From: an uncultured Alphaproteobacteria bacterium
GTDB taxonomy: Bacteria > Pseudomonadota > Alphaproteobacteria > HIMB59
Length of the DNA: 64,000 bases
Direction of reading: 5' to 3'
Assembly (NCBI GenBank): GCA_902557145.1
Contig: CACDYZ010000007.1
Coordinates: 1-64,000 of the forward strand
The first letter of the stretch is position 1; each line of letters begins with the position of its first letter. The translations under genes were made by a program, and so were the position numbers. Shown here piece by piece: positions 27,047 to 48,216 of the stretch. The notes under the pieces were generated by a model, which saw only the letters and a program-made list of their open reading frames with translations, searched no databases and had not been told where the DNA came from.

Positions 27047-28705
27047 ATGTTTGAAAATCCTGATTATATTGTAATTGGTTCTGGATCGGCAGGATCGACA
27101 ATAGCATACAGACTTGGGGAGAATCCAAAGTTAAAAATTCTAGTTTTGGAATTTGGTGGACTGGATAAAAGTCCATTTATTCAAATGCCTGCCGCTCTTT
27201 CTTACCCTATGAACATGGACAAGTTCGATTGGGGTTATAAAGCTGAACCAGAGCAAGCATTAAACGGAAGATCTTTAGCCTGTCCTAGAGGTAAAGTTAT
27301 TGGAGGATCCTCTTCAATTAATGGAATGATTTATGTAAGAGGAAACGCTGGTGACTATAATCAGTGGGCAGAAAGCGGAGCGAAAGGTTGGGATTATCCA
27401 GATGTTCTTCCATATTTTCAAAGAATGGAAGCAAGCCATGGAGGAAATTCTGAATTTAGAGGGAAATCTGGCCCATTAAATATAACTCATGGCAAAAGAG
27501 ATAATCCTTTACATAACGCGTTTGTAAAAGCAACTGAACAAGCAGGGTATACTTACACTGAAGATTATAATGGTTTTCGACAGGAGGGCTTTGGGCCCGC
27601 TGACATGAATGTTTGGAAAGGTTCACGTTTTTCTACAGCTAAAGCTTATTTAAAACCTGCATTAAAGAAGAAAAATGTACATCTAATAACTAAAGTTTTA
27701 GTCGATAAAATAATATTTAGTGAAGACAAGGCTAAAGGGGTGGAAGTATTTCATCAAGGTCAAAAAAAAATTTTTAATGCCAATATCGGAGTTATTTTAT
27801 CTGCCGGCGCTATAAATAGTCCAACAATTCTTCAAAGATCAGGAATTGGAGAGGCCAATGATTTAAACAACTTAGGAATTAAGGTTATTAAAAACTTACC
27901 TGGAGTTGGTAAAAATTTACAAGATCATTTAGAAGTTTATTTTCAAGTGAAGTGTTTACAACCAGTAACACTTAACAAGTACTTAAACCCATTTTCTAAA
28001 TTGTTAATTGGAATGCAATGGATGTTTCTTAAAAGTGGGCCAGGTTCCACAAACCAATTTGAAACACTTGGATTTATTCGTTCAGATAAAAATATTCCAT
28101 ATCCTGATATTCAATTTCATTTTCTCCCTGTTGCAATAAGATATGATGGTAAAGCACCAAGTAAAGGACATGGTTTTCAATTACACGTGGGACCCATGCG
28201 TTCAAAATCTCGAGGATTTGTGAAATTAAAGTCTAACAACCCTTTTGAGGCACCTTTAATAAAATTTAATTATATGTCTCATGAAGATGATTTTCCGAAC
28301 TTTAGAAAATCACTCAGACTTTCTAGAGAAATTCTTAACCAAGATGCGTTAGCTCCTTTTAAAGGAAGTGAAATTCAACCTGGAGATAATGTTGTATCAG
28401 ATGAGGGACTTGATGAATTTATAAAAAATAACTGTGAAAGTGCTTACCATCCATGTGGTACTTGCAAGATAGGAGAAGAAGACGATCCTTCATCGGTTGT
28501 TCAAAATGACTGTAAAGTTAAGGGTTTTTCAAATTTTTACCTTGCAGACTCCTCCATTTTTCCTCAAATCTGTAATGGAAATCTTAATGCACCCTCCATA
28601 ATGACTGGTGAAAAAGCATCGGATCATATTTTGGGAAAACCTCTTTTAGCTCCATCTAATTTACAACCCTATACTCATCCAAACTGGCAGAATTCTCAGA
28701 GATAA
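27047..28705 (+). CDS. betA: GMC-family choline dehydrogenase
   Basis: FAD-dependent oxidoreductase of the glucose-methanol-choline family, most like BetA, which oxidises choline to betaine aldehyde. The N-terminal FAD motif YIVIGSGSAGSTIAYRLGEN, CPRGKVIGGSSSINGMIYVR, and the C-terminal SAYHPCGTCKIG and GNLNAPSIMTGEKASDHILG segments are characteristic, with the catalytic His in SAYHP. Length is 552 aa. No betB or betI neighbour is present. Related alcohol dehydrogenases share these motifs, so the substrate is probable rather than proven. The nearby quaternary-amine genes fit. Confidence 0.82.
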   Translation: MFENPDYIVIGSGSAGSTIAYRLGENPKLKILVLEFGGLDKSPFIQMPAALSYPMNMDKFDWGYKAEPEQALNGRSLACPRGKVIGGSSSINGMIYVRGNAGDYNQWAESGAKGWDYPDVLPYFQRMEASHGGNSEFRGKSGPLNITHGKRDNPLHNAFVKATEQAGYTYTEDYNGFRQEGFGPADMNVWKGSRFSTAKAYLKPALKKKNVHLITKVLVDKIIFSEDKAKGVEVFHQGQKKIFNANIGVILSAGAINSPTILQRSGIGEANDLNNLGIKVIKNLPGVGKNLQDHLEVYFQVKCLQPVTLNKYLNPFSKLLIGMQWMFLKSGPGSTNQFETLGFIRSDKNIPYPDIQFHFLPVAIRYDGKAPSKGHGFQLHVGPMRSKSRGFVKLKSNNPFEAPLIKFNYMSHEDDFPNFRKSLRLSREILNQDALAPFKGSEIQPGDNVVSDEGLDEFIKNNCESAYHPCGTCKIGEEDDPSSVVQNDCKVKGFSNFYLADSSIFPQICNGNLNAPSIMTGEKASDHILGKPLLAPSNLQPYTHPNWQNSQR

Positions 28706-29244: not shown

Positions 29245-29791
29245 ATACTTACTATTGTTGTTTCTCATGGTACAAAACTTGATGGCTTACAGTGAATCTC
29301 CTTATAAGGTTGTTTATCAAACGGACACTTATGAAATTCGATATTATGAGGAACGCTTAATAGTAGAAACTCAATACTCTAATCAAAATAATGGATTTCA
29401 GAAACTCTTTAAATACATTTCAGGTAACAACAAACAAAGTCAAAAAATTGAAATGACCACACCTGTTAATGTTACAGAAATTGAAAATCAGTTTGTTATG
29501 CAATTTTACTTACCTAAGAGATTTCAACAAAATGAGATACCTCTGCCCTCAGATAAATCATTAAAAATTTCAACAATAGAACCAGGATATTTTGCGGTAA
29601 TTAGATATTCAGGTTTTGCCTCAGATAAAAACTTTCACAAACATAGAGAAATTTTAAAAAACAAATTAAATGCCGATGATATAAAAGTTTTAGGTTCTGC
29701 TATTAAAGCTACATATGATGGCCCTTTCACACTTCCCAATCTTCGAAGAAATGAAGCAATTTTTTTAGTTGATTGGAAGGAGCCTCTTTGA
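29237..29791 (+). CDS. SOUL haem-binding family protein, exported
   Basis: SOUL/HBP-fold protein. Start at ATG 29237 gives a signal peptide MIRYLLLLFLMVQNLMAYSE; a longer version from 29207 would bury it. Core motifs are YKVVYQTDTYEIRYYEERLI, KIEMTTPVNVTEI, MQFYLPKRFQ and FAVIRYSGFASDKNFHKHRE. About 184 aa. Homologues bind haem or tetrapyrroles, with function in bacteria unsettled. It overlaps the SH3 gene by 8 nt, and its stop shares a base with the next ATG (TGATG). Confidence 0.83.
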   Translation: MIRYLLLLFLMVQNLMAYSESPYKVVYQTDTYEIRYYEERLIVETQYSNQNNGFQKLFKYISGNNKQSQKIEMTTPVNVTEIENQFVMQFYLPKRFQQNEIPLPSDKSLKISTIEPGYFAVIRYSGFASDKNFHKHREILKNKLNADDIKVLGSAIKATYDGPFTLPNLRRNEAIFLVDWKEPL

Positions 29792-30942
29792 TGCAAAGTA
29801 AAAACACACATAAAAATTTTGGATTTGGCACTCAAATTAGAAAATCTCCTTTTTTTGATGCTACAGTTAGATGGGGGGCCACTGGATTTTCTGTTTATAA
29901 TCATATGTATATCCCAAGGGATTTTGGTGACCCAGAGAAAAATTTTTGGAATTTAGTTAATGATGCGATTTTATGTGATGTAGCAGTTGAAAGACAAGTT
30001 GAGATAACTGGCCCTGATGCATTCCAGTTTATTCAATTACTTACACCGCGCGATCTTAGTAAAATATCTATAGGGCAGTGTAAATATGTACTTATTACCA
30101 ATGAACAAGGGGGAATACTCAATGATCCTGTCTTACTACGCCTGGGTGAAAATCATTTTTGGTTATCTCTATCTGACAGCGATATTTTATTATGGGCTCA
30201 AGGCGTTGCAGTAAATTCTGGACTAAATGTTAGTATCGAAGAACCAGATGTTTCGCCTCTTCAGTTGCAAGGACCAAAGTCAAGGGAGATTATGGTAAAA
30301 TTATTTGGAGAAGATATTAAAGATTTAAAATATTACTGGCTTAAAGAATTAGAATTGGATGGTATTCCGTTAGTTGTCTCACGCACCGGATGGTCTACAG
30401 AACTTGGATACGAATTATTTTTACGTGATGGAACTCAGGGAGATAGATTATGGGAGATGATCATGACAGCAGGTAATGAATATGGTCTTCAGCCTGGACA
30501 CACATCAAGCATTCGACGCATTGAAGGGGGTATGTTGTCGTATCACGCAGATGCAGATATACACACGAACCCGTTTGAGATGGGACTTGAAAGACTAGTA
30601 TCTCTGAATAGTGATATTAATTTCATCGGTAAAAAAGCACTTATGAAAATACATAAAAATGGAATTAAACGTCAGCAAATTGGTTTGGAAATAGCGGGCG
30701 ATTCTTTGAAAGGTCCCAACACAGTATTTTGGGAAGTATCCTGTGATGATAAAATCATTGGAAAAGTAACTTCTGCAGTATTTTCACCACGATTAGAAAA
30801 AAATATAGCATTGGCAATGGTTGATAAAAATTTCATAAAAATAGGTTTGAAAGTTTCAGTTGAAATTAATGGGGATTCCAGAGAGGCGATCATAGTAGAA
30901 AAGCCATTCTTCGATCCTAAAAAATCACTTCCAAGCTCTTGA
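29791..30942 (+). CDS. GcvT-like, DmdA-related tetrahydrofolate-dependent demethylase
   Basis: Aminomethyltransferase-fold protein, 383 aa from ATG 29791 (AAGGAG 8 nt upstream). The N-terminal half closely follows the DmdA pattern (VYNHMYIP, DVAVERQVEITGPDA, LTPRDLSKISIGQCKY, WLSLSDSDILLWA). The part that separates true DmdA, RSGxSKQGGFE, is RTGWSTELGYELFL here, as in other GcvT-type demethylases. I therefore read it as a paralogue transferring a methyl or one-carbon unit from an unknown methylated amine or sulfonium to folate. Operon with betA, SH3 and SOUL genes. Confidence 0.75.
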   Translation: MQSKNTHKNFGFGTQIRKSPFFDATVRWGATGFSVYNHMYIPRDFGDPEKNFWNLVNDAILCDVAVERQVEITGPDAFQFIQLLTPRDLSKISIGQCKYVLITNEQGGILNDPVLLRLGENHFWLSLSDSDILLWAQGVAVNSGLNVSIEEPDVSPLQLQGPKSREIMVKLFGEDIKDLKYYWLKELELDGIPLVVSRTGWSTELGYELFLRDGTQGDRLWEMIMTAGNEYGLQPGHTSSIRRIEGGMLSYHADADIHTNPFEMGLERLVSLNSDINFIGKKALMKIHKNGIKRQQIGLEIAGDSLKGPNTVFWEVSCDDKIIGKVTSAVFSPRLEKNIALAMVDKNFIKIGLKVSVEINGDSREAIIVEKPFFDPKKSLPSS

Positions 30943-33359: not shown

Positions 33360-33935
33360 TTAAATTTTTGGTAATCCCAAAACTTCGCTTTTTTTAATAA
33401 ATTCCTCTTTATATGGAGGTCTTTTAAAAATCTCTTTAATCATAGGTTTAAAAAAATCTAAATCTTTGTTCTCATATTCTGGGTCAAAAGATTTTTGATC
33501 CCATCTTTCGCAAAAATCAGCGCATGTTTGAAAATAAATATTATCTTTAAATTTATCCCTAGCATTTTTATCCCAACCATAATGATGGGCGTAATAAATC
33601 ATTTGAAAAATTCCATGATGCTCAACCACCCAAGTTACTTCTTCTCTAACATAAGGTCTTATGACCTCAGCAGAAAATCTATCGTGATTTTGAGGAGCAA
33701 GTCCATCTCCAATATCGTGAAGTAATGTTCCAACAATCCAATCAATATCAGCCCCATCGTTGTATGCTCTCGTAGCTGATTGAAGTCCATGATCCAATCT
33801 TGTAATTTTATAGCCCTCCATAGTATTTTGTCCTTGTCTTGATAGTTCTTCGATAATCCTCTCATAAGTCAAAGAGACATATCTTTCCTCATATTCTTGA
33901 AGTAATAAATAATCATCCTTATCACCATCTTTCAT
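33360..33935 (-). CDS. tmpB: HD-domain mixed-valent diiron oxygenase, TmpB-like
   Basis: Likely cleaves the C-P bond of (R)-1-hydroxy-2-(trimethylamino)ethylphosphonate to give glycine betaine and phosphate, as shown for TmpB; PhnZ is the related enzyme. HD ligands in order: His49 (TRLDHGLQSA), His73-Asp74 (LLHDIGD), His84 (PQNHDRF), His106 or 107 (VVEHHGIFQ), Asp146 (CERWDQKSFDP). Start Met at 33935 gives 191 aa and a 22-nt gap after tmpA; upstream in-frame codons would overlap tmpA by 74 nt and are not used. Adjacent pairing with a TmpA-like dioxygenase is the decisive evidence. Confidence 0.78.
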   Translation of the reverse strand: MKDGDKDDYLLLQEYEERYVSLTYERIIEELSRQGQNTMEGYKITRLDHGLQSATRAYNDGADIDWIVGTLLHDIGDGLAPQNHDRFSAEVIRPYVREEVTWVVEHHGIFQMIYYAHHYGWDKNARDKFKDNIYFQTCADFCERWDQKSFDPEYENKDLDFFKPMIKEIFKRPPYKEEFIKKSEVLGLPKI

Positions 33936-33957
33936 ATGTTTAAATTTTACATTCTTA

Positions 33958-35088
33958 TCAACCAAAATTTTTAGATCCTTTTTGTGTATATTTTCTATGC
34001 AAATGCCTAAGTTTACCTTCCGTTGAGTCAAAATCTAGATAACAACCTTGGAGGTGTCTAGCACCTTCATTAGAGTCATATGCGGTTCTTCCATGAAGCA
34101 GTCTGTGATTATCAAACATCATAACGTCCCCAGGTTTAAGCTTAAAACTAATCTCAAAATCTGATGAAGAATATAAATCACTTAGTAGTTTTCTAGCTTG
34201 ATAGAAAGTTGTAAGACTTTTTTGATCAAGTGGCGGAACGTAATCAACTCTTGTGCTATATCTTACTTGCTTGTAATCTCCCTCTTTATCCAACTCAATA
34301 AGCTCTCCCCAATTTTCTAAAATAATATCTTTGTCTTGAAATTGATATCTCAGATTAGTTTTAGTCAAAGATTTAAAAGCTTCATGGTTATTGATCTTAA
34401 TATGATCAGCAACTGCAAAACCATCTACCAGAGTAGAAAAACCACCACTCACCTCATTTTTTAGACAATGCAAAAATTGAATTCCAGGCGCAGCTGGCTT
34501 TCTATAGGGATTGTCCGTATGTGGAGGGAGAGCAATAGGCTTATAAGCTAAATCATTGGGGTTAGGTTTGGACATCACATCAAAATACTCTCCAAAGTTA
34601 GTTACTTTTACAGGGCCTATTGAACTCACAAATTTAAGTAAATATCGATCTTTTGTTGGAACGTTTTTAATAATTACAAAGCCAAATTTATAAAAATCCT
34701 CTAGAAGTTTATACATCGACACTTTCTCAACCATATTCTCTTCAAACTCTATATTTGGAAATTCTTTGAAATCTGAGTTCCAAAGTAGTCTTTTGGGTAA
34801 AGGGCCGCGTTTATTTTTATCGTTATCAAACTCTATTAAAAGATCTTGAATATTGTATTTGCCTTTAGCCCCATCATTGAATTCAATATCAAGTTTTTCT
34901 TCTAAAATTTTTGCTGTTTTAATTTTTAAATCTAATTTAATGGAAGAAGGTTCATAGAGCCTTTGATTTGTATCTTTGTCGATATAGTCATTTCCTGGTA
35001 ATCTTTCCCTTAACCAAATAGGATGTAATTCATAATCATGATTTTGGTGTGTCACTTTTAGTGAGTCACTTGAAAACTGAACCTTCAT
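33958..35088 (-). CDS. tmpA: Fe(II)/2-oxoglutarate dioxygenase, TmpA-like (gamma-butyrobetaine hydroxylase family)
   Basis: Predicted 2-trimethylaminoethylphosphonate hydroxylase. An N-terminal GBBH-like domain (YELHPIWLRERLPGNDYIDK, without zinc cysteines, as in many alphaproteobacterial members) precedes the TauD-like catalytic domain. Iron ligands are His190-x-Asp192 (LPPHTDNPYRKPAAPG) and His332 (NHRLLHGRTAY); Arg344 (EGARHLQG) should bind 2-oxoglutarate. Length 376 aa. By itself the family could hydroxylate gamma-butyrobetaine or trimethyllysine. The following HD-oxygenase gene points to the TmpAB phosphonate pathway instead. Confidence 0.78.
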   Translation of the reverse strand: MKVQFSSDSLKVTHQNHDYELHPIWLRERLPGNDYIDKDTNQRLYEPSSIKLDLKIKTAKILEEKLDIEFNDGAKGKYNIQDLLIEFDNDKNKRGPLPKRLLWNSDFKEFPNIEFEENMVEKVSMYKLLEDFYKFGFVIIKNVPTKDRYLLKFVSSIGPVKVTNFGEYFDVMSKPNPNDLAYKPIALPPHTDNPYRKPAAPGIQFLHCLKNEVSGGFSTLVDGFAVADHIKINNHEAFKSLTKTNLRYQFQDKDIILENWGELIELDKEGDYKQVRYSTRVDYVPPLDQKSLTTFYQARKLLSDLYSSSDFEISFKLKPGDVMMFDNHRLLHGRTAYDSNEGARHLQGCYLDFDSTEGKLRHLHRKYTQKGSKNFG

Positions 35089-36918: not shown

Positions 36919-38025
36919 CTATTTTGAAAAAGGTAATGAGGTCATTTGGGTTTGTACCTCTTGATTATCAATCAACAATGTTTTGACATCATCAAAATTT
37001 TGAAACTTGGTTTCTATCATTGCGATACCAAGACAGCACCCAAAATCAGGGCTAAAACAACCAGACCTTAATTCACCGATAATTTGTCCATCTAATTGAA
37101 TAGGTAGGAATTTTGTTATACTTAAACTATCAAGCTTAAGTTTTAAACCAACCAAGGACCTTTGTAATCCCTCTTGATTTTGTTTTTCTAGTAATGATTT
37201 TCCTAAATATTGTATTTCAGGATTAAAAGAAACAAAAGGTTTTAAACCACATTCTAAGGGAGTATCTTCCATCGTCATGTCATTCCCAAAAGAAAGCAAG
37301 CCTCCCTCAATTCTTTCAATTAAATTTGGACAACCCGGTCTGACATTTAAATCTTCTCCATTAGTAATTAGTTTATCATAAAGATTCAGACCGACTTCAT
37401 CATCATCTACATAAATTTCAAATCCACCTTGTTTTGACCAACCTGACCTGGCAATAAGTAATTTATGACCTTGGAATTCATATCTATTGAAATTAAAAAA
37501 TTTTAATTTTTTTATTTCTTCACCAAAAACTCTTTCCATTAAATCAAAGGATTTAGGCCCTTGCACAGCTAAAATGTTGACATTGGGTTCAGTAATTTCG
37601 ACATCTAATTTCATTCCAATAGCAATTCCTTTTGCATATAATAAAACATCTGAGTCAGCTATAGATAACCACCAAGTATCAGAGCTCACTTTCATAATTA
37701 ACGGATCATTAAGTATCTTTCCTTTTTCATCAACAATAGGTGCATAGTAACAAAGATAGTCTTTTGCATTTGATAAATCTCTACACGTTATAAGTTGTGT
37801 AAGCTTAGCAGCATCAGGTCCTTGAAATTGGACTTGTCTTTCAACTGATACATCCCAAACTTGAACATTATTTTTGAGATGAAGACAGTCCTCCTCAACA
37901 CCTTTAAAAGATGCTGGTAAGATCATATGATTGTAAACTGTATAAGACTGAACCCCATATTCTTCAATCCTTTTTGTATATGGTGTGGAGCGGAGTCGGG
38001 CGCTTTTAGCAATTAAATGGTTCAT
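36919..38025 (-). CDS. dmdA: Dimethylsulfoniopropionate demethylase DmdA
   Basis: Tetrahydrofolate-dependent enzyme converting DMSP to methylmercaptopropionate. It has the DmdA hallmarks TPYTKRIEEYGVQSYTVYNHM, WDVSVERQVQFQGPDAAKLTQ, SWLSIADSDVLLYAKGIA-like WWLSIADSDVLLYAKG, ARSGWSKQGGFEIY and GCPNLIERIEGGLLSFGND. The R-S-G-x-SKQGGFE segment distinguishes DmdA from GcvT. Length 368 aa. The 333-nt upstream gap holds its promoter. It heads a minus-strand operon with MFS, ridA and tmpAB. Confidence 0.88.
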   Translation of the reverse strand: MNHLIAKSARLRSTPYTKRIEEYGVQSYTVYNHMILPASFKGVEEDCLHLKNNVQVWDVSVERQVQFQGPDAAKLTQLITCRDLSNAKDYLCYYAPIVDEKGKILNDPLIMKVSSDTWWLSIADSDVLLYAKGIAIGMKLDVEITEPNVNILAVQGPKSFDLMERVFGEEIKKLKFFNFNRYEFQGHKLLIARSGWSKQGGFEIYVDDDEVGLNLYDKLITNGEDLNVRPGCPNLIERIEGGLLSFGNDMTMEDTPLECGLKPFVSFNPEIQYLGKSLLEKQNQEGLQRSLVGLKLKLDSLSITKFLPIQLDGQIIGELRSGCFSPDFGCCLGIAMIETKFQNFDDVKTLLIDNQEVQTQMTSLPFSK

Positions 38026-38358: not shown

Positions 38359-39414
38359 TTAAATATTTAATCCTAAAATAAAAATTAAAATACAGACTGA
38401 AAAAAAAGTAACAAGGCTATAAACCATTCCTATCAATAAAGGGTTATAGCTCTGATTAAAAATCTTTTTTAAATTGATTGATGCACCAAGTGCCGTTAGT
38501 GCCAAACCAAATAAGATAGTTGTAATTTTTTCTGAGACTTTAAAAATATTTCCCCAGATCTCAGAGTTTAAATAAAAAGTATCAATCATTGAACGAAAAA
38601 AAATTAAAGTAATAAAACCTAAAACAAATAATGGTACTGAATTAATAATACTCTTCATAAGAGGTGAATTTTTGGGATTGTCATTATTACCCTTATTTTT
38701 TAAAATAACTAAAGTTGGAATTAATAATACTAGAAATAAATTCCTAAGTAGTTTGGTGATAGTCGCTACTTCAAGAACTTTATTATTTAGATATAAATCG
38801 CTATGCACCATTGCAGCAGCCAATACTTGACTTGTATCATGGATACCAATTCCTAAAAAAACCCCCTTAGCTAAATCAGATATAAAATACCATTCAATAA
38901 ATACAGGATAAATGAATACAGCTAAGCTACCCCAAAGAATAACGACCAAAACAGCAAGCCCAACTTCATAATCTTTTGATTTTAAAACACTTGATGAGGC
39001 CATTATTGCTGTTACACCACAAATTGATGTCCCAATTGCTAGTAACTTTGATAACTCTTTTTGTGCTGGCCATAACTTTGAGAGAGCGAAATAAGCCAAC
39101 AAAATCAATGAAATTGTGACAATTATGATTACTATCGATTGAATACTTACACTGGTGAGTTGAGTAAAACTTATCTTTAAACCTAGCAAAATAATCGCTA
39201 ATTGAAGAATGTCCTTTTTAATGAAATCTCGTCCTTCGAGAGTTTTTTCAGAAAATTTAATTACATTGAAAAATAATATCCCTAAAATAAGACAGAGTAA
39301 GCTTAACGGTAAAATTGATAAATTTAAAATATAACTCAGGGGTTGTCTTAAAAAAATTGCAAATAAGTAAATTAGACCTATAACAAGAATTCCATTATAG
39401 TTTCTACTAGTCAT
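38359..39414 (-). CDS. YeiH/TauZ-type putative sulfate exporter
   Basis: Polytopic membrane protein (about ten spans) of the COG2855/YeiH family. LAIGTSICGVTAIMASSSVLKSK-type segment (shown here as AIGTSICGVTAIMASSSV) and the FLGIGIHDTSQVLAAAMVHS motif are characteristic, with TALGASINLKKIF near the C-terminus. Length 351 aa. Members next to taurine and other sulfonate genes (TauZ) are proposed sulfate or sulfite exporters. Last gene of the proXWV operon, 8-nt overlap upstream, hinting that the operon's substrate contains sulfur. Confidence 0.82.
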   Translation of the reverse strand: MTSRNYNGILVIGLIYLFAIFLRQPLSYILNLSILPLSLLCLILGILFFNVIKFSEKTLEGRDFIKKDILQLAIILLGLKISFTQLTSVSIQSIVIIIVTISLILLAYFALSKLWPAQKELSKLLAIGTSICGVTAIMASSSVLKSKDYEVGLAVLVVILWGSLAVFIYPVFIEWYFISDLAKGVFLGIGIHDTSQVLAAAMVHSDLYLNNKVLEVATITKLLRNLFLVLLIPTLVILKNKGNNDNPKNSPLMKSIINSVPLFVLGFITLIFFRSMIDTFYLNSEIWGNIFKVSEKITTILFGLALTALGASINLKKIFNQSYNPLLIGMVYSLVTFFSVCILIFILGLNI

Positions 39415-40003
39415 TATCAGTTAAACCAGCACCAGCTCCTGAAATTTTTTTCTCTTCTGTTTCTTCAACAAAAGTTTCTAGTGACAGTTTATATAGATAG
39501 TCCCAAGTACTTTGAGAATAAATACTTTTTCTTTGAGTTGTTATACTAATTGAAAAATCTGATATATATTCAGGGAAGATATTTTGATCAAAAAAATAAA
39601 TATCACCGGGACTAATGGTAAAATTTAAATTTGATGAATAAAAATGAAAGTAGAGTAAATTATTTTTTGCTGATTTAGATAAGAAAGGAAGAATTAATAG
39701 GGGTTCATTTAAATTCTTAAAATTATGATTACGATGTATGTCTTCATTGTGAGATTGATCGAGAAAGAAAATCCCAAAATGTATAGGACAAAGATTGCTT
39801 GTATCAGATTGATTTATATCCAAAAGTTTATTAAGACCACTTAGTCCCAAATCAATTAGTCTCTTAAAACTCTCCAGTCCTTGAAATTCTGATTGCTCTA
39901 ATAGTCTAACTGCCTTTCCAGCTTCCTCAGAAAGCCCCCAACTTAATCCTTTAGCACGAGATGATCTTTTAACTGTAGTTTCAATTTCATATAAAGAATG
40001 CAT
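39407..40003 (-). CDS. DUF3726 family protein
   Basis: Conserved protein of unknown function. The opening LYEIETTVKRSSRAKGLSWG followed by LSEEAGKAVRLLEQ matches DUF3726 (..EIe..a.kAaRgaG..wGlAEEAGkA.RwL). ATG 40003 shares a base with the previous stop (TAATG), giving 198 aa; an upstream start would overlap. No membrane segment or signal. It always appears to travel with the 551-aa gene here, so a joint function, such as subunits or maturation factors of one enzyme, is plausible. Confidence 0.78.
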   Translation of the reverse strand: MHSLYEIETTVKRSSRAKGLSWGLSEEAGKAVRLLEQSEFQGLESFKRLIDLGLSGLNKLLDINQSDTSNLCPIHFGIFFLDQSHNEDIHRNHNFKNLNEPLLILPFLSKSAKNNLLYFHFYSSNLNFTISPGDIYFFDQNIFPEYISDFSISITTQRKSIYSQSTWDYLYKLSLETFVEETEEKKISGAGAGLTDND

Positions 40004-41658
40004 TAAGCTATCTTTTTGTAAGACCAAGTATCATCTGATTTACTTATTTCTTTCATTAACGGGGCACCTTGGTACATAGTAATTCTTACCCATCGATCTG
40101 ATCGAGGGTCAAAGCGCGTAGCACCAAAAAAGGATAGTTTTAGTCGGAGCATATCAACAGGTATTAAGGTTTTTGAGATAGTATTATCTTGGATTTCAGA
40201 GTAGGGCAGTTGCTCGCATATCAGAACCCTTCTTAAAACATGTCGATATTCTTGGTTTTTTAGTAAATAATACCCTAAGTCTTTATCTAACTTACAAGAT
40301 TTTAAGTCGTTATAAAGTGCACTTATATCTCTTGCTATTGCAAGAGGCAGCTCTAAGTCTGAACCCTCTTCGGTAAATCTATCAGACATTCGAGGTTCTT
40401 GTTTGTTTTTTGAGTAATACCAAAAATTGAATACATTTTCTTTATTATCGAAATTAATATTTAACAGCCAAGTATATTGATTTTCAATTAACTTACATAT
40501 CTCATCAATTGTCCTTGATGTATCAATATCGAAGTATTCATCTTCATTTATTGACATTTCATAACTTAATGGCTCAACAATATCTGGGTAAACTTCCATC
40601 ATTAATGAGACAATAAACTCGCAGCACTCAGCTTGCGTATTAGCCTCTGTCCATTTGTAAATAGTATTCCAAAAAAATTTATCTAAAGAAGTTGTTGAAA
40701 AGAACCTTTGAAAACTATCAAGATCTTTTAAGAGTTGTCTATTTTTGTTCTTTTGATATTCACTTTCTGTTTTCCAAAATTTAATATTCTCCTGAATAGT
40801 TGTTAAATATAATTGAAAAGTATTTTTATCATTTTGGTTAACAGAGGAAATGGAACGAATTAATTTTAATGCTTTTTCTTTTGCAATAATCCATTGGTTT
40901 AGGAGCGCTGGATGATTTACGATAAACGGAGCCATACCCAAACCTGTAGAATTACCGATACCTAAGTTTCTAGCTATATCTTCACTAAGTCTTACTGCTT
41001 TTTCTGGTGAACGAAAGTGAGCGACGTGGTTGACCACATCAAAAGTAAATTGTCGCGCAAGGTATACAAGCATCATCTCTAATCTAAAGGGTCCTTTAAG
41101 CTCCTCTCTATCTTGAACTTTAATTCGATCAGCTAATCCAAATTTACCTGAACCATACACAGCGGTAGTACGATAAAGATAGCCCACATCGTATAAAAGC
41201 TTAGTATCTGGCTGTTCACCTTGAGAGAGTTTATCCACTACATGTTCAAAGACACGAACTGACTTGTTAGCACGAGATAAGCAAAGTTCTTTTTCACTTA
41301 CTCTTCCTTGTTCTTGAAGTGGAACATTCGCTTTAAGTCTTTCAATATCTGCTTTAGCTGGAACTCCATCAAATAAAACAAAAGAGGCATCCCATTTCGT
41401 GGCTATAACTCGATCAGATCTCTCACTATTTTCGATATGATTAGAAAAACAAATCAGGGAATACTTTTTTTGCCCTTTATTTACCTCATAAACAATGTGA
41501 CCAAAGCCTTGGTCGTTTAAAAAAAATTCTTTAGTCTTAAAATCCCAACTCTTAAATTCTCTTATGAAACTTCTTAAAAAAGATAACTTAGATTGATGAA
41601 ATGACCCTAATCGATCTAATTTCATTACTATTTCGGGTTTTCTTAGCTCTATATGCAT
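40003..41658 (-). CDS. Conserved 551-aa protein of unknown function
   Basis: Large soluble protein with no catalytic motif I can name. It begins MHIELRKPEIVMKLDRLGSF and carries conserved-looking blocks RSDRVIATKWDASFVLFDG, CLSRANKSVRVFEHVVDKLS, LLYDVGYLYRTTAVYGSGKF and LGIGNSTGLGMAPFIVNHP. I recall similar hypothetical proteins in other proteobacteria beside DUF3726 genes, but no characterised member. The glycine-rich GIGNSTGLGMAPF could be a nucleotide or cofactor loop. Start ATG 41658 shares a base with the upstream stop. Confidence 0.8.
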   Translation of the reverse strand: MHIELRKPEIVMKLDRLGSFHQSKLSFLRSFIREFKSWDFKTKEFFLNDQGFGHIVYEVNKGQKKYSLICFSNHIENSERSDRVIATKWDASFVLFDGVPAKADIERLKANVPLQEQGRVSEKELCLSRANKSVRVFEHVVDKLSQGEQPDTKLLYDVGYLYRTTAVYGSGKFGLADRIKVQDREELKGPFRLEMMLVYLARQFTFDVVNHVAHFRSPEKAVRLSEDIARNLGIGNSTGLGMAPFIVNHPALLNQWIIAKEKALKLIRSISSVNQNDKNTFQLYLTTIQENIKFWKTESEYQKNKNRQLLKDLDSFQRFFSTTSLDKFFWNTIYKWTEANTQAECCEFIVSLMMEVYPDIVEPLSYEMSINEDEYFDIDTSRTIDEICKLIENQYTWLLNINFDNKENVFNFWYYSKNKQEPRMSDRFTEEGSDLELPLAIARDISALYNDLKSCKLDKDLGYYLLKNQEYRHVLRRVLICEQLPYSEIQDNTISKTLIPVDMLRLKLSFFGATRFDPRSDRWVRITMYQGAPLMKEISKSDDTWSYKKIA

Positions 41659-42626
41659 TAATCAAACTTCTTATAAAAATTGTACCAATTATTTCCCAAG
41701 ATGTCGTGCGTCTCTTCTTCACTGAAACCAGTATCTCTTAAACCTTTATGAAGATTCTCAAATCCTCGAGCATCTTCAAACCATGATGGCTGAGGTGGAA
41801 AACCTGCATTATCTGCTGTACCTTCTCCAAAATCTTTTGTTTTAGTCCACGTACCATTGCGCATCCATTCAACTATACTATCTGGATGGTTAATACAAAG
41901 ATCAGACCCAATACCAATTTGCTTGATTGATATTCTTTTAGTTGTGTCTGCTATCATTTCACAGAAAGATTGAAGCGAGCAATTTGACGACCCTTTTAAA
42001 TGATGAGGATATAATGAAAAACCAATCATTCCACCACTTTCATTAAGTGCTTTAAGTATATTGTCAGACTTATTTCGTAGTCCTTCATGCCAAAATAAAG
42101 GATTTGCATGACTGACTACAATTGGTTGCTCAGAAAATTTTATTGCTTCCAATGTTGAAAATTCTGCTGAATGAGACATGTCAATAATCATTTTTACTCT
42201 ATTCATCTCTTTGATAACTTCTCTTCCCATTCGTGTGATGCCAGTATCTCTTTTTTCATAGCATCCAGTTGCAAGAAGTGACTGATTATTATATGTCAGT
42301 TGCATGAAAAGTATTCCTAGGTCCTTTAAAACTTCCACATATTCAATATTATCTTCTATAGGAGAGCAATTTTGAAGGCCGTAAAAAATAGCAGTCTTCT
42401 TTTCAAGTTTAGCTTTTTCTATGTCTTGAGAATTAAAACCTTGAAAAATTAAGGAGGAAAATTCCTTAAAATAATTTTTCCATTGTGCAATATTAGTTTT
42501 TAATTCATCAAAATCTTCATGGTAACAAATGGTGGCATGAACAGCATCGAGCTTTGCCTCATGATTGATTTCAAAAATCTCTTTAGACCAGTTGCAGTAT
42601 TGTAAATTATCTACTCTGTAGTTCAC
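41658..42626 (-). CDS. Membrane dipeptidase (peptidase M19) family protein, atypical
   Basis: Amidohydrolase-fold protein of the M19 family. Conserved parts are LGILFMQLTYNNQSLLATGC, VKMIIDMSHSAEFSTLEAI and QPIVVSHANP (metal-binding His of the second site), with QIGIGSDL near the C-terminus. The bridging Glu of typical M19 enzymes (IEG) appears as Gln in FYGLQNCSPIEDN, and the N-terminal HxD is not evident. This looks like the subgroup I recall near dimethylglycine catabolic genes in Pseudomonas. A GTG start shares a base with the preceding stop. True peptidase activity is doubtful. 322 aa. Confidence 0.78.
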   Translation of the reverse strand: MNYRVDNLQYCNWSKEIFEINHEAKLDAVHATICYHEDFDELKTNIAQWKNYFKEFSSLIFQGFNSQDIEKAKLEKKTAIFYGLQNCSPIEDNIEYVEVLKDLGILFMQLTYNNQSLLATGCYEKRDTGITRMGREVIKEMNRVKMIIDMSHSAEFSTLEAIKFSEQPIVVSHANPLFWHEGLRNKSDNILKALNESGGMIGFSLYPHHLKGSSNCSLQSFCEMIADTTKRISIKQIGIGSDLCINHPDSIVEWMRNGTWTKTKDFGEGTADNAGFPPQPSWFEDARGFENLHKGLRDTGFSEEETHDILGNNWYNFYKKFD

Positions 42627-44068
42627 TAGATCTTGCCAGGGCTGACATAAGTTGTTTTTACATGAGTGAAAAACTCGTGAGCATAAGTACCTTGTTCTCT
42701 TGGCCCAAAAGAAGAAGCCTTTCGTCCACCAAATGGCACATGGTAATCTAAACCTGCTGTTGGTAGGTTAACAGTAGTTACCCCAGTTTTTATATTCTTT
42801 TTAAAGTCAGCAGCCTTACTGAGAGACTGAGTTATAATACCACTAGATAGTCCAAAAATTGTATCATTTGCTACCTCAAGACCTTCCTCATAAGATTTAA
42901 CTGGAATAACACAAGCTATTGGACCAAACATTTCTTCCTGATTGATGGTTGATTTATTATCACCATCAATAAAAAGAGTTGGTTCCATATAATGACCAGG
43001 TGTTCTCATATTCATTGGGTTTCCCCCATAAGCAAGTTTTGCTTCATTTTTCCCAATTTCAATATAATCAAGGTTGGATTGTAATTGTGTTTCACTTGAA
43101 ACTGGTCCCATTTGAGATCCCTCATCAAGAGCATGACCTACTTTCAAGGAGCTAATACTTTCAATTAGTTTTTCATTAAATTCTTTATAGACTTTCTCAT
43201 GAACAATTAATCTTGAACTTGCAGTACATTTTTGTCCAGTCCCACCATAAGCACCATTTGTTGCACAGGCGACTGCAATATTTAAATCAGCATCATCCAT
43301 TATTACTAATGGATTCTTTGAACCCATTTCTAACTGCATTTTTTTCATAGATTTTGCTGCTTCAAGGTAAATGGTTTGACCAACACCGACCGAGCCAGTA
43401 AAGCTGATGGCATTAATATTTACATGACTTGAAATTTGATGACCAATTGTTCCACCACCTCCTAAAACTAAATTAAATAATCCTTCAGGTATATCTTTTT
43501 GCTCACTAATTATTTTTGTTAATGCAATCGCACTAGCGGGTGTTTGCGAAGCTGGTTTTAAAACTATAGCGTTACCAAAAGCTATTGCAGGTGCTGACTT
43601 CCAAGCAGCTATTGCGATGGGAAAATTCCAAGGTGAAATAATACCGCAAACCCCAACAGGTTCTCGAGTCATTTCTACAGAGACGCCATCACGAGTTGAG
43701 GCTATATTTTCTCCAAACTGTCTAAGGGCACTTGCGGCATAGTACTGAAATTGTTGTCCTGATCTAACTACTTCACCAATACCTTCGGGAAGAGTTTTCC
43801 CTTCTTCTCTTGATAAAAGCGTGCCAATTTCTTTAGACTGTTTAATAAGCTCACTTCCAATATTATGCAAAATGTTTGCTCTTTTTTCTATACCAACCTG
43901 TTCCCATTTTTTTTGGGCAAGTTGAGCAGACTCTACTGCATCATTAAGTTGCTGCGATGTAGCATTTGTATATTCATCGATAACATCATTAGTATCTGAG
44001 GGATTAATGTTTTTAATAGATCCTTCACCAGCAACCCATTGGCCAGCCACATAATTACAGTTTTTCAT
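42626..44068 (-). CDS. Aldehyde dehydrogenase, alpha-ketoglutarate-semialdehyde dehydrogenase-like
   Basis: NAD(P)-dependent dehydrogenase. The catalytic Cys281 lies in TGQKCTASSRLIV, Glu247 in LEMGSKNP, Asn148 in SPWNFP, Lys171 in VLKPASQTP, and the C-terminus HVPFGGRKASSFGPREQGTY is complete. The GQKCTA.SR form and the overall start (VAGQWVAGEGSIKNINPSD) are closest to 2,5-dioxopentanoate (alpha-ketoglutarate semialdehyde) dehydrogenases of hydroxyproline and sugar-acid pathways. 480 aa. 4 nt from proV and 1-nt overlap with the M19 gene. Confidence 0.87.
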   Translation of the reverse strand: MKNCNYVAGQWVAGEGSIKNINPSDTNDVIDEYTNATSQQLNDAVESAQLAQKKWEQVGIEKRANILHNIGSELIKQSKEIGTLLSREEGKTLPEGIGEVVRSGQQFQYYAASALRQFGENIASTRDGVSVEMTREPVGVCGIISPWNFPIAIAAWKSAPAIAFGNAIVLKPASQTPASAIALTKIISEQKDIPEGLFNLVLGGGGTIGHQISSHVNINAISFTGSVGVGQTIYLEAAKSMKKMQLEMGSKNPLVIMDDADLNIAVACATNGAYGGTGQKCTASSRLIVHEKVYKEFNEKLIESISSLKVGHALDEGSQMGPVSSETQLQSNLDYIEIGKNEAKLAYGGNPMNMRTPGHYMEPTLFIDGDNKSTINQEEMFGPIACVIPVKSYEEGLEVANDTIFGLSSGIITQSLSKAADFKKNIKTGVTTVNLPTAGLDYHVPFGGRKASSFGPREQGTYAHEFFTHVKTTYVSPGKI

Positions 44069-44072
44069 TTTG

Positions 44073-45110
44073 TTATTTTCTTAAGATTTCAGATAATCGT
44101 TCAGCACTCAGATATCCAATTGCAGAGCCGTCTTCACCTAAAACCTCCACTAAAGTTGGCTTATCAACAACAACTCGATCAATAAATTTTTCAATCACAT
44201 CATCGCCCTTAACCTTCATGGATTGACCATTCATAAGATCTTTTGAGATTTCTGAGGAATTTTGCATGATATTTTTAGCTTTTAATACCCTGCTTCTGTT
44301 GACATCTTCAACAAATTTTCTGACATATTCAGTTTTTGGGCTTAAAAGAATATTTACAGCATCACCTTCTTGATCCATAGAACCATCTTTTAAAATAGCA
44401 ATATTATCACCAAGCTTCAACGCTTCATCAAGGTCATGAGTTATAAATACAACAGTTTTTTTTAATTCAGATTGTAGCTCAAGTAAAATGTCTTGCATAT
44501 CTTTTCTAATCAGAGGATCTAATGCACTAAAAGCTTCATCCATTAACAAGATATCTGGATCGTTGGCTAATGCCCTTGCAAGTCCAACTCTTTGTTGCAT
44601 GCCGCCAGATAATTGTTGAGGGTATCTGTGTTCAAAACCCAATAATCCAACTCGATCAATCCAATGCATAGATTGTTTTTCTGCTTCTAAGGGGTCAAAT
44701 TTCTTTATGAATAGTCCAAAAGAGACATTCTGTAAAACAGTTTTATGAGGAAGTAATGCAAACTTTTGAAATACCATTGCTGTTTTATTTTTTCTAAAAT
44801 CTAACAAATCATTTTGGGAGAGAGTCAGAACATCTTGACCATCGACCATCATCTCACCTGATGTGGGTTCTATAAGTCTATTTATATGTCTAATCAAAGT
44901 AGATTTTCCTGAACCTGACAACCCCATGATAACTTGTAAGGACTGATTTGGAATATCAAGGTGAATATCACTTAATCCCAATACATGTTTATGTTCTTCA
45001 AGCAGCTGATCCTTACTCATACCATTATTAACTTTATCAATGAGAGGTAACGGGTTAGGACCAAAAATTTTATATAATTTTCTTATTTCGATCTTATTAT
45101 CAGAAGACAT
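44073..45110 (-). CDS. proV: Quaternary-amine ABC transporter ATP-binding protein (ProV type)
   Basis: ATPase of an osmolyte importer. Walker A MGLSGSGKSTLIRHINRLIE, Q-loop VFQKFALLPHKTV, signature LSGGMQQRVGLARALA, Walker B ILLMDEAFSALDPLIR and switch ITHDLDEAL are intact. The start LYKIFGPNP is the ProV/OpuAA hallmark, and a C-terminal CBS-like half (about residues 270-345) is present but short. 345 aa, 2 nt from the permease gene. Confidence 0.93.
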   Translation of the reverse strand: MSSDNKIEIRKLYKIFGPNPLPLIDKVNNGMSKDQLLEEHKHVLGLSDIHLDIPNQSLQVIMGLSGSGKSTLIRHINRLIEPTSGEMMVDGQDVLTLSQNDLLDFRKNKTAMVFQKFALLPHKTVLQNVSFGLFIKKFDPLEAEKQSMHWIDRVGLLGFEHRYPQQLSGGMQQRVGLARALANDPDILLMDEAFSALDPLIRKDMQDILLELQSELKKTVVFITHDLDEALKLGDNIAILKDGSMDQEGDAVNILLSPKTEYVRKFVEDVNRSRVLKAKNIMQNSSEISKDLMNGQSMKVKGDDVIEKFIDRVVVDKPTLVEVLGEDGSAIGYLSAERLSEILRK

Positions 45111-45112
45111 TA

Positions 45113-46012
45113 TTAAATAGCATCTCCAGATCGATGTTTTTGAATTCTCTTTCCATAAGCTTGAGAAATTCTATCAAAGACAATTGCTAGGATAACTATG
45201 GCTAGTCCATTAAGCATACCAAGTGTAAAGTACTGATTAGTAATTGCTCTTAGAACTTCTTGACCTAATCCTTTAACACCAATCATTGAGGCGATAATAA
45301 CCATAGCAAGTGCCATCATGATCGTTTGATTGACGCCTGCAAAAATTGTAGGGAGAGCCAAAGGGAATTGAACTTGAGTAAGCTTTTGCCACGGCGTTGC
45401 TCCGAAAGAGTCTGCTGCCTCAAGAATTTCTCTATCCACTTCTCGTATTCCCAAATTTGTTAATCTTATCATTGGGGGAATTGCATAAACTATTACAGAA
45501 ATTAAACCTGGTATCTTTCCAATACCCAGCAACATTACAACAGGGATAAGATAAACAAATGGTGGAAGTGTCTGCATAAAATCTAATATAGGTGTGATAA
45601 CCGCTTGAGCTCGATTAGATTTTGACATCCAAACGCCTGTAGGAATACCAATGGCAATTGCCATAATTGTTGCAACAATAATAAAGCCCATTGACTCCAT
45701 CATGTCTTCCCACATACCCATGTATCCAACAAAGAAAAAGGAAATGATTATTCCAATAACAATCTTATAACTCCTAGTTCCATAGTAAGCAAAAACACAA
45801 ACAACACCAATAATGACTAACCAAGGTGTAGCAACAAGTAACTTTTCCCAAAAAACTAAAAATTTTAGAAGGGGGTTGAAGAACGTTTCAATGTAGTCAC
45901 CATATTCCCTAGAAAAAGTTTTATAAGCAGCATCAGTGCTTTTTTTAAAGGCACGAATTAACTCTTTAGGTAGCGTTGGAAAGTCAAAGAAGAAGTTTGA
46001 TTGATTTGCCAT
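45113..46012 (-). CDS. proW: Quaternary-amine ABC transporter permease (ProW type)
   Basis: Inner-membrane permease with about seven spans. The binding-protein-dependent EAA loop is EILEAADSFGATPWQKLTQV with downstream PLALPTIFAGVNQTIMMALA, and DFMQTLPPFVYLIPVVMLLG is the ProW/OpuAB signature. 299 aa with an N-terminal amphipathic extension. Between proX and proV. Confidence 0.93.
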   Translation of the reverse strand: MANQSNFFFDFPTLPKELIRAFKKSTDAAYKTFSREYGDYIETFFNPLLKFLVFWEKLLVATPWLVIIGVVCVFAYYGTRSYKIVIGIIISFFFVGYMGMWEDMMESMGFIIVATIMAIAIGIPTGVWMSKSNRAQAVITPILDFMQTLPPFVYLIPVVMLLGIGKIPGLISVIVYAIPPMIRLTNLGIREVDREILEAADSFGATPWQKLTQVQFPLALPTIFAGVNQTIMMALAMVIIASMIGVKGLGQEVLRAITNQYFTLGMLNGLAIVILAIVFDRISQAYGKRIQKHRSGDAI

Positions 46013-46026
46013 GGAAATATTTTATA

Positions 46027-46049
46027 ACAGGCCCAATAGTAGGGCCTGT
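46027..46049. promoter_or_regulatory. Intercistronic hairpin between proX and proW
   Basis: The perfect 8-bp stem ACAGGCCC / GGGCCTGT has a 7-nt loop, in the 53-nt gap after the proX stop. On the minus strand only scattered T follow, so it probably stabilises the proX message or partially terminates, giving more binding protein than permease, as in the malE-malF arrangement. Confidence 0.6.
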
Positions 46050-46065
46050 CTAATATTAAATTATC

Positions 46066-47082
46066 TTAGTCAAAAATTAAGGATTGCTTAATTTTTTCTG
46101 CAGCTTCATCAGAAACCATTCTAGTCCATAGATCTGATCTATTTTCTAAAATGTATTCAGCTGCTTCTTCAGGTGAAAGTTGATCTGCATCAGCTGCAGC
46201 TAAAAGCACACTGATTTCAGCACTTGTCATACCTCTATTACCAAGATAGGTCATCACTGTATCGTTATCCATAATCTTCTTGGAAACATAAATTTCAACA
46301 GTTGAAACGGGATGGTTCATCATGACTGGATCTGGACAATCCATATCAATACCAATACATCTTTCCCACTCAGCAGCATCATATGGTCCTTGATCTACTT
46401 GAACCATTTCGACTTGTCCTAAGATAGCTGTTGGACCCCAATAATAACCAATCCATCCATCACCTTTATTGTAGGCTTCTGACATGGAACCAGCTAAACC
46501 GGCACCTGAACCTGGATCAATTAAATTCCATCCTTTATTGGCCATGTCACCAGCTTTAAATAATTGGTGTGTCGTAATTTGACAGTTCCAACCTGCAGGG
46601 CAACCATAAAGAGCACCTTTGCTTGGATCTTCTGGGTCTGGGAATAATTGAGGGTTAGCTATAACACCATCAATAGTTGCTAATTCTGGATGTGCATCAA
46701 GCATATACTTTGGAATCCAAAGTGACTCAATAGCACCACCGGCAATTGACTCACCAGCAGAAGCAATTCTACCTTCTTCAACAGCAGGTTTTAGAAGAGG
46801 ACCAAGTCCATTTGTCCATAATTCAGGGGCAATATCAGGTTCACCCTTTTCAATCATTGAAGTTCCAGTAGGCATTGTATCACCGGGTACTAGTTCAACA
46901 TTACAGCCATAACCAGTAGATAAAATTTGAGCATCTAAATGAGCTAAAACGGCCGCTGATTGCCAAGTCATCTCGGCAATAGTAACGTCTCCACATTCAT
47001 GGCTACCTGCATTAGCTGAGGTGAAAGCACCAAAGCCAAGAGTAAGCATAGATGAGAGAAAAAGAGCTTTAATAAATTTCAT
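46066..47082 (-). CDS. proX: Quaternary-amine ABC transporter substrate-binding protein (ProX/OpuAC type)
   Basis: Periplasmic receptor of the operon's importer. Signal peptide MKFIKALFLSSMLTLGFGAF with ANA cleavage. Tryptophans placed as in aromatic cages for trimethylammonium groups occur in AEMTWQSAAV, APELWTNGLG, IESLWIPKY and DGWIGYYWGPTA. Two Cys near the start and pairs later (CPAGWNCQ, CIGIDMDC) suggest disulfides. The pattern CGDVTIAEM..GYGC resembles marine betaine/TMAO receptors. A perfect GGAGG site precedes ATG 47082. The ligand is not resolvable by eye. 338 aa. Confidence 0.88.
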   Translation of the reverse strand: MKFIKALFLSSMLTLGFGAFTSANAGSHECGDVTIAEMTWQSAAVLAHLDAQILSTGYGCNVELVPGDTMPTGTSMIEKGEPDIAPELWTNGLGPLLKPAVEEGRIASAGESIAGGAIESLWIPKYMLDAHPELATIDGVIANPQLFPDPEDPSKGALYGCPAGWNCQITTHQLFKAGDMANKGWNLIDPGSGAGLAGSMSEAYNKGDGWIGYYWGPTAILGQVEMVQVDQGPYDAAEWERCIGIDMDCPDPVMMNHPVSTVEIYVSKKIMDNDTVMTYLGNRGMTSAEISVLLAAADADQLSPEEAAEYILENRSDLWTRMVSDEAAEKIKQSLIFD

Positions 47083-47226
47083 TTTTCCTCCTTAAATTTA
47101 ATAAAGATATATATCTGGGGTTAGTAGAACATTTAGGCAATTATCATGCAAATTATTTTTCAGGTTAAATTGTCATAAATTTTCTATTTTCCTTGAAACA
47201 TCTGAAAAAAGATATCTAATTTTGCA

Positions 47227-48216
47227 GTGACTTATCTATCTAAAGCTGAGGCTAGTGAGATTATTCTTGAAAAGCTAGCAAAATCAGGCTGTTCTGAGGA
47301 TAACTCTTCAGGGATATTAGAGGGCATACTTGATGCAGAATTTAGTGGTATTAAAAGTCATGGTTTCCATTATTTGCCAATTTATTGCAATCACCTTAAA
47401 ATTGGAAAGATTAATGGAAATGCCTCTCCAACATTTGAACAAATTTCAAACTCATCTGTAAAGGTTGATGCAGACAATGGTTTTGCCCATACGGCAATCA
47501 ACATTGGCCTCAAGCATTTATGTAAAATGAGTTCTATTGAGGGAATCTCTTGCCTGTCAATATACAACTCATATAACTGTGGAGTTCTAGGCTTCCACAC
47601 CAGAAGAATTGCTGAACAAAATTTAATAGGATTAGGTTTTACAAATGCACCAGCTTCAATAGCCCCCGTTGGAGGCATTAAGCCAGTAATAGGAACAAAT
47701 CCTTATTCAATGGCAGCACCGCTAAATGGCAAGGTCTCAATTATTATAGACCAATCAGCTAGCATTGTTGCAAAAAGTGAAATTTCTGTGAGAGCAAAAA
47801 CAGATGAGCCAATTCCAAAGGGATGGGCTTTTGATAAAGATGGTGAAGTTACAACAAATGCAAAAGAAGCACTTAAAGGAACCATGGCTCCCAGTGGTGG
47901 CCACAAAGGTTTCAGCACGGGATTATTAGTTGAAATCTTAACTGCTTGTGTTGCTGGAGGAAATTTAGGCACACAAGCTTCATCATTTGCAGGTGAGGAT
48001 GGTGGCCCTCCATCTACAGGTCAATTTTTTATAGCTATTAATCCAAAAAAATTTAATCAAGATTTTGAGGCTCATTTAGAGCGACTTCTTATATCTATCT
48101 CTTCCCAGGAAGGTTCAAGAGTACCTGGTTCAAAGCGATTGAAGGCATTTAATGAAAATATTGATAATGATATTTTTATTTCAGATGAACTTATGAGTCG
48201 TATTGATCAAATATAA
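47227..48216 (+). CDS. Ldh2/malate-lactate-ureidoglycolate dehydrogenase family oxidoreductase
   Basis: NAD(P)-dependent dehydrogenase of the Ldh_2 fold, the family of sulfolactate, ureidoglycolate and Delta1-pyrroline-2-carboxylate/piperideine reductases. Motifs: AEFSGIKSHGFHYLPIY (active-site His), NSYNCGVLGFHTRRIAEQ, PVGGIKPVIGTNPYSMAAP, GGHKGFSTGLLVEILTA and EGSRVPGSKR. A GTG start at 47227; 329 aa, slightly short. Divergent from proXWV with a shared 144-nt promoter region, suggesting a role in the same pathway. If the substrate is a sulfonate, sulfolactate-type chemistry would fit; a proline-derived imine is equally possible. Confidence 0.85.
   Translation: MTYLSKAEASEIILEKLAKSGCSEDNSSGILEGILDAEFSGIKSHGFHYLPIYCNHLKIGKINGNASPTFEQISNSSVKVDADNGFAHTAINIGLKHLCKMSSIEGISCLSIYNSYNCGVLGFHTRRIAEQNLIGLGFTNAPASIAPVGGIKPVIGTNPYSMAAPLNGKVSIIIDQSASIVAKSEISVRAKTDEPIPKGWAFDKDGEVTTNAKEALKGTMAPSGGHKGFSTGLLVEILTACVAGGNLGTQASSFAGEDGGPPSTGQFFIAINPKKFNQDFEAHLERLLISISSQEGSRVPGSKRLKAFNENIDNDIFISDELMSRIDQI

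Follow-up and report, generated by a model that had tools for sequence, protein, structure and literature searches.

Probable homarine uptake and breakdown by an operon joining a DmpX-type importer to P551 and DUF3726 in an AEGEAN-169/HIMB59-type alphaproteobacterium

Which compound is taken up and broken down where a betaine-type ATP-binding cassette (ABC) importer is encoded together with an aldehyde dehydrogenase (ALDH) and the protein pair P551 (551 aa) and DUF3726? The question is posed by eight genes at 38359..47082 in a stretch of 64,000 nucleotides from an uncultured alphaproteobacterium (contig CACDYZ010000007.1, positions 1 to 64,000; assembly GCA_902557145.1, 1.19 Mb in 29 contigs), which is called the window in the following. 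A sequence-only reading of this DNA had proposed the uptake and oxidation of a quaternary amine. The analysis supports an operon of this kind, for the import and oxidation of an osmolyte with a methylated onium group, in a small-genome ocean bacterium of the AEGEAN-169/HIMB59 type, and the substrate is probably homarine (N-methylpicolinate), which, like dimethylsulfoniopropionate (DMSP), is an abundant osmolyte of phytoplankton. The unit would thus be a variant of a pathway that has probably been published already; new is the wiring of a DmpX-type importer to the P551 enzyme set, alongside an aberrant active site in the M19-fold protein and a possible Ldh2 origin of DUF3726.

In the order of transcription, the minus-strand operon encodes the periplasmic substrate-binding protein ProX (46066..47082), the permease ProW (45113..46012), the ATPase ProV (44073..45110), the ALDH (42626..44068), a protein of the M19 fold (41658..42626), P551 (40003..41658), the DUF3726 protein (39407..40003) and, as an accessory, a membrane protein of the YeiH/PF03601 type (38359..39414). 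All open reading frames (ORFs) were found at the places and with the spacing described by the sequence-only reading: after a gap of 53 nt between proX and proW, which holds a hairpin, gaps of 2 nt (proW-proV) and 4 nt (proV-ALDH) are followed by overlaps of 1 nt at ALDH/M19, M19/P551 and P551/DUF3726 and of 8 nt at DUF3726/YeiH. Because of the three 1-nt overlaps, three stop codons share a base with the next start, as had been stated, if DUF3726 is taken from the ATG at 40003 (its longest ORF begins with a TTG at 40027). Two further genes lie outside the coordinates considered before. One encodes an NAD(P)H oxidoreductase of the Ldh2 family (47227..48216, plus strand; Pfam Ldh_2, 291 bits), is divergent from proX and belongs to the same system as its fifth enzyme; the other is the DMSP demethylase gene dmdA (36919..38025, minus strand; NCBIfam PRK12486, 505.6 bits, above the cut-off of 410), a separate unit downstream.

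That this arrangement exceeds chance follows from its recurrence in sister genomes and from the presence of the M19-P551-DUF3726 core in dozens of unrelated genomes. The sister loci keep the order Ldh2, proXWV-ALDH-M19-P551-DUF3726, dmdA-MFS-RidA-TauD (locus L040 begins at ALDH, where its contig starts). In the nine fuller sister loci P551 is 76-88% and M19 82-85% identical to the window copy, but in most of them ProX reaches just 40-50% and ALDH about 70%, from which it follows that alleles of the importer and of the ALDH have been exchanged. The region 42626-47082 is a mosaic, with ProX nearest to L079 (82%) and ALDH nearest to L040 (94%) and L039 (88%), while P551 and M19 follow the species.

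Within the class, P551 was present in 53 of 386 sampled genomes, and the M19-P551-DUF3726 block is conserved in SAR11, Rhodobacterales, rhizobia and other Proteobacteria. The 65 long SAR11 loci, among them a few of HIMB59 type, carry 65 P551, 65 DUF3726 and 66 M19 genes. A check of co-occurrence, as called for by the sequence-only reading, came out in its favour and gave M19 in 35, Ldh2 in 16, ALDH in 12, LysR in seven, BCCT in six and ProX in four of 40 sampled loci within 8 kb of P551. The typical arrangement is LysR-ALDH-M19-(BCCT)-P551-DUF3726-Ldh2, found with BCCT on a plasmid of Ruegeria TM1040 and without it, together with ProXWV and purU, on a plasmid of Shinella. The same ALDH gene occurs in the operons of Ruegeria, Phaeobacter, Shinella and Mesorhizobium, and in Ruegeria, Shinella and Mesorhizobium Ldh2 is co-operonic with DUF3726. 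Family f2, which belongs to the same order, has M19 on the strand opposite to P551-DUF3726, in divergent orientation. Around them lie sarcosine-oxidase-type genes and, named by sequence inspection, proline-racemase-like and M24 peptidase-like genes and an ABC importer of spermidine type. Three loci (L160, L201 and L203; Sinorhizobium and others) contain a P551 paralogue that has diverged (about 24-35%); it is accompanied by M19 and again by a spermidine-type ABC importer, and possibly serves another substrate.

P551 and DUF3726 had been proposed as the key enzyme, and they are indeed core partners: DUF3726 follows nearly every P551, and in Mesorhizobium (L161) both are fused into a single protein of 814 aa. 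This fusion, together with the TAATG overlaps, points to a physical complex. Their description as proteins of no known function holds for Pfam, the Protein Data Bank (PDB) and the open literature, but the operon itself very probably belongs to a homarine pathway of 2026. P551 matched no family of Pfam or NCBIfam and no PDB sequence at E values up to 10, showed no relation to the Ldh2 profile, and a Pfam search with 13 of its homologues gave scattered weak matches, mostly to one member each. Its AlphaFold model (pLDDT 73.9, pTM 0.80) found no fold match in the PDB (best E 0.64). Model confidence is lowest in several stretches that are among the best conserved, which would be expected if their ordering requires the partner. 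As the alignments for structure prediction were shallow (44 and 36 rows of window and related-locus sequences), the fold may be called new only provisionally.

DUF3726 is recognized by its Pfam model (59.1 bits, gathering score 22.1) and ends in a conserved tail, GAGAGLTDND; a literature search for this family returned no paper. The first 18 PDB fold matches of its model (pLDDT 82) are all Ldh2-type dehydrogenases, with a best E value of 0.004, probabilities up to 1.00 and TM scores of 0.39-0.51 normalized to the query. An hhalign comparison with the operon's own Ldh2 gave P 3.7e-4 over the N-terminal helices at a probability of only 36%. DUF3726 is therefore a probable, still unproven, shortened relative of Ldh2.

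The importer was assigned through ProX (Pfam OpuAC, 147 bits), whose best PDB match is RnDmpX (7yle, E 9e-58). The published pocket of DmpX consists of W35, T64, W84, E113, W152, A153, Y200 and W202 (PMC10030565), and seven of these eight positions are kept in ProX (W-T-W-E-W-N-Y-W against W-T-W-E-W-A-Y-W); position 153 is Asn in ProX, Ala in RnDmpX and Gly in many DmpX proteins. Loss of Tyr200, which ProX possesses, abolishes DMSP binding by DmpX (PMC10030565). By its sequence ProX is a member of the DmpX group, whose proteins have until now been described as DMSP-specific. For ProW, Pfam BPD_transp_1 and the choline/betaine permease models of NCBIfam were matched, the latter below their cut-offs, and ProV (Pfam ABC_tran) reaches 322.6 bits against the TIGR01186 proV cut-off of 326.6.

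A DmpX from SAR11 (DmpX7211), about 35% identical to the protein of R. pomeroyi, binds DMSP with a Kd of 100 nM (PMC10030565). The SAR11 genomes examined contain only one substrate-binding protein with both T64 and E113, 33-37% identical to RnDmpX; on account of these residues and this identity to RnDmpX it is very probably the orthologue of DmpX7211. Linkage of DmpX to P551 was analyzed in 98 SAR11 genomes and 121 Rhodobacteraceae-type genomes (the family of G369), neither chosen by context; the P values assume independent genomes and are indicative only. Among the SAR11 genomes P551 occurs in 34, DmpX in 15 and both in 11 (co-presence P = 0.002), and DmpX lies within 5 kb of P551 in eight of these 11, against 0.09 expected. 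The Rhodobacteraceae-type genomes contain P551 in 59, DmpX in 31 and both in 15 cases; presence of the two is uncorrelated (Fisher P = 1.0) and only position is linked, with DmpX within 12 kb of P551 in six of 15 against 0.09 expected. The linkage is convergent in most SAR11 genomes, rather than co-operonic. In the DmpX tree, the subclade L248-L250 is wholly linked to P551, and none of the eight members of the RnDmpX subclade is. In a SAR11 locus (L101:13134-17229) a proX-proW operon runs on into MetF-like and GcvT-like genes, with no adjacent proV.

The ALDH (Pfam Aldedh, 493 bits) is an NAD(P)-dependent enzyme by family and keeps the general catalytic residues Cys281 and Glu247; its earlier assignment as an alpha-ketoglutarate semialdehyde dehydrogenase is rejected, as it scores 489 bits against the NF042993 cut-off of 770. 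The name M19-like was right for the fold (Pfam M19, 225 bits) and wrong if a dipeptidase is meant. Across 47 aligned sequences the bridging Glu is Gln in all, two His and the Asp are retained, and in those sequences that were read out other residues stand in place of the HxD motif (L-x-Y in the window protein); the ligand positions are those established for renal dipeptidase. With half of the metal ligands missing, a classical binuclear site is impossible. The closest structure, 2i5g (E 3e-50), is described in the PDB just as 'amidohydrolase', and the window protein falls into its subgroup. The best PDB match of Ldh2 is 1wtj, a delta1-piperideine-2-carboxylate reductase, a point in favour of homarine as the substrate.

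What connects this set to homarine? Ferrer-Gonzalez et al. reportedly described in 2026 an operon named homABCDER, which occurs in Rhodobacterales, SAR11 and SAR116 and has N-methylglutamate as its product. The window operon is probably the AEGEAN-169/HIMB59-type version of this operon. ALDH, M19, P551, DUF3726 and Ldh2 are all present in the window and match the order of the Roseobacter operon; together with the LysR gene of other copies they would correspond to the hom genes.

Evidence from outside the operon is the neighbourhood of N-demethylation genes. Genes of the sarcosine-oxidase type (Sox-type), which probably encode N-methylglutamate dehydrogenase (Mgd), stand next to the operon in Ruegeria TM1040, Aliiroseovarius, Shinella and the loci L174, L186, L249 and L252. 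Mgd takes part in homarine catabolism, for which a conserved pathway (Ferrer-Gonzalez et al. 2026, Nat Microbiol 11:1531) is cited, and the AraC-type regulator gene tmaR adjoins mgd (PMC13390433); the same pairing of AraC and Sox stands beside the operon in Ruegeria TM1040. Rapid consumption of homarine is documented for R. pomeroyi (PMC12817926). The window genome (G000) itself carries, at C5:10058-18072, soxBDAG-type genes followed by a class-II amidotransferase gene, a 228-aa ORF and a glutamate-synthase-domain gene, probable mgd and mgs genes for which NCBIfam holds no Mgd model. The Sox-type alpha subunit encoded near the SAR11 block groups with this copy (support 100/99). As Sox-type genes adjoin the operon in several lineages and the SAR11 ones group with the copy preceding mgs-like genes, an N-methyl amino acid is suggested as the product. 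Two further observations concern such genes in the window genome: a probable methylated-amine cluster (L215, G000:C5:1-20000) combines a ProX-type ABC importer, a 783-aa GcvT-domain protein and a flavin-monooxygenase-like ORF with soxBDAG/mgd-type and mgs-like genes, and a second, divergent soxBDAG set (L216, G000:C18) stands with dimethylglycine-dehydrogenase-like, MetF-like and GcvT-like genes.

We propose the following route. The zwitterion would be taken up by ProXWV through the aromatic cage, and its ring attacked by P551 and DUF3726 acting as one complex. After ring opening, M19, ALDH and Ldh2 would convert the resulting chain into an amino acid with an N-methyl group, presumably N-methylglutamate, from which Mgd, encoded elsewhere in the genome, would release glutamate and a one-carbon unit. 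From the atom balance, cleavage between C5 and C6 could yield an N-formyl, N-methyl dehydro-glutamate semialdehyde, whose aldehyde would be oxidised by ALDH and whose formyl group might be taken off by the M19-fold protein; reduction of the imine by Ldh2 would then lead to N-methylglutamate.

Several points weigh against homarine. Gene-by-gene identity with the hom genes is provisional, and the literature searched yielded no biochemical data for P551 or DUF3726. No LysR gene adjoins the window operon, while one is present in the operons of Ruegeria, Shinella and Mesorhizobium; we do not take the regulator as defining and file the unit as probably the same pathway. The SAR11 copies lack an adjacent ALDH and Ldh2 of the window type, and 1wtj leads the matches of Ldh2 only narrowly (144 bits, 137.5 for sulfolactate dehydrogenase). 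Finally, the nearest characterised relatives of ProX bind DMSP (PMC10030565), and dmdA adjoins the operon.

In one alternative, the importer is the DMSP transporter DmpXWV and the whole operon is devoted to DMSP or a closely related sulfonium, for which dmdA provides the catabolic outlet. The shared pocket including Tyr200 and the affinity of the SAR11 protein (PMC10030565) speak for it, as does the position of dmdA, which lies downstream in the sister genomes and adjoins the operon in Phaeobacter and G047. Yet dmdA forms a unit of its own, DMSP fits none of the known reactions of M19, P551, DUF3726 or Ldh2, and N-demethylation genes are commoner neighbours than S-demethylation genes. The conserved enzymes are moreover found in soil bacteria, and the transporters that accompany them vary (BCCT, branched-chain, spermidine-type or ProXWV). 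We regard an operon for DMSP as improbable. A refinement compatible with homarine as substrate, a serious possibility though short of probable, is that DmpXWV carries both osmolytes, the operon handling homarine and dmdA DMSP. It agrees with the linkage of DmpX to P551 and with the list of ligands that DmpX is stated to have been tested on, which does not include homarine; the authors leave other ligands possible and found dmpXWV not colocalised with known DMSP catabolic genes (PMC10030565). The mostly convergent SAR11 arrangement and the occurrence of DmpX without P551 in four of 15 SAR11 and 16 of 31 Rhodobacteraceae-type genomes argue against it. In Phaeobacter inhibens DSM 17395 (L159:12873-18313) dmdA-dmdB-dmdD-dmdC follow the operon on the opposite strand, a second lineage with DMSP demethylation adjoining.

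A further alternative makes homarine incidental and has as substrate another N-methylated heterocycle or betaine (trigonelline, hydroxyproline betaine or proline betaine). It is suggested by the operon and its distant paralogues in rhizobia, which meet trigonelline and stachydrine, and by the proline-racemase-like gene in f2. Its chance of being right is as small as that of the DMSP operon: among the genomes seen, marine oligotrophs show the widest spread, in a habitat rich in homarine, and the Mgd linkage agrees with the reported homarine route. Least probable by far is the proposal of the sequence-only reading that a sulfur betaine or N-methylated sulfonate is imported and sulfate or sulfite exported by the YeiH-type protein. 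The gene does hold an operon position, and Ldh2 weakly matches sulfolactate dehydrogenase (184 bits, cut-off 500); but the YeiH-like protein (PF03601, 190 bits) reaches 131.5 bits against the TIGR00698 cut-off of 232.6, and its gene, present in the five closest sister loci (L031-L035), is missing at L036-L040 and was seen in no other lineage among those read. Sulfite export was rejected on these grounds, and with it the sulfonate, to which nothing in the conserved enzymes points; another link to sulfur does stand, through the DmpX-like ProX and dmdA downstream.

Turning to the remaining features, the proX-proW gap (46013..46065, minus strand) contains a GC-rich hairpin with a 9-bp stem (-17.6 kcal/mol, z -4.07), and 200 shuffled sequences included none as stable; an Rfam search found no family for it. 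The 144 bp between proX and Ldh2 (47083..47226) were read as a divergent promoter region, and a promoter scan returned fewer matches than in shuffles. Downstream of dmdA, at 33360-35088 (minus strand), a gene with an HD domain is overlapped by that of a TauD-type dioxygenase, whose close relatives are TmpA (6npb) and gamma-butyrobetaine dioxygenase; the two may form a pair like TmpAB that acts on a quaternary ammonium phosphonate. In several sister genomes the HD gene is replaced by an ORF of about 382 aa. An extra GcvT-family gene, distinct from dmdA, lies at 29773-30942 (plus strand) near a GMC oxidoreductase gene (27047-28705).

A bolder and rather doubtful extension is that DmpX, which is called DMSP-specific and for which very high transcript levels are reported from parts of the surface ocean, acts in SAR11 and AEGEAN-169 as a receptor of homarine or of both DMSP and homarine, and that P551-DUF3726 is a ring-opening enzyme of new fold whose active site is completed by the shortened Ldh2-like subunit. 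If DmpX also or mainly served homarine in SAR11-like cells, dmpX counts could no longer be turned into estimates of DMSP uptake without correction. P551-DUF3726 would represent a class of enzymes that has no relative of solved structure and that is found in some of the sea's most numerous bacteria.

Compared with known systems, ProX shares with the DMSP transporter DmpXWV (PMC10030565; PDB 7yle) 36% identity over the aligned part, all four cage tryptophans and Tyr200, whereas the window importer shares its transcript with catabolic enzymes for which no action on DMSP is known. Like the peptidases of family M19 (renal dipeptidase), the M19-fold protein has the fold, both active-site His and the late Asp, but HxD and the bridging Glu are replaced, as in 2i5g and unlike the dipeptidases. 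Within the Ldh2/type-2 malate dehydrogenase family (1wtj, 4fjs, 2x06) the plus-strand gene product is a full member by Pfam; the DUF3726 model aligns to this fold, while the protein has only about 200 aa and is missed by the Pfam Ldh_2 model. The homarine operon reportedly comprises five genes plus a regulator and is present in Rhodobacterales, SAR11 and SAR116, and its Mgd link is seen here; the window differs from it in having proXWV and the YeiH-like gene in the transcript, no LysR gene, Ldh2 on the opposite strand and dmdA adjoining.

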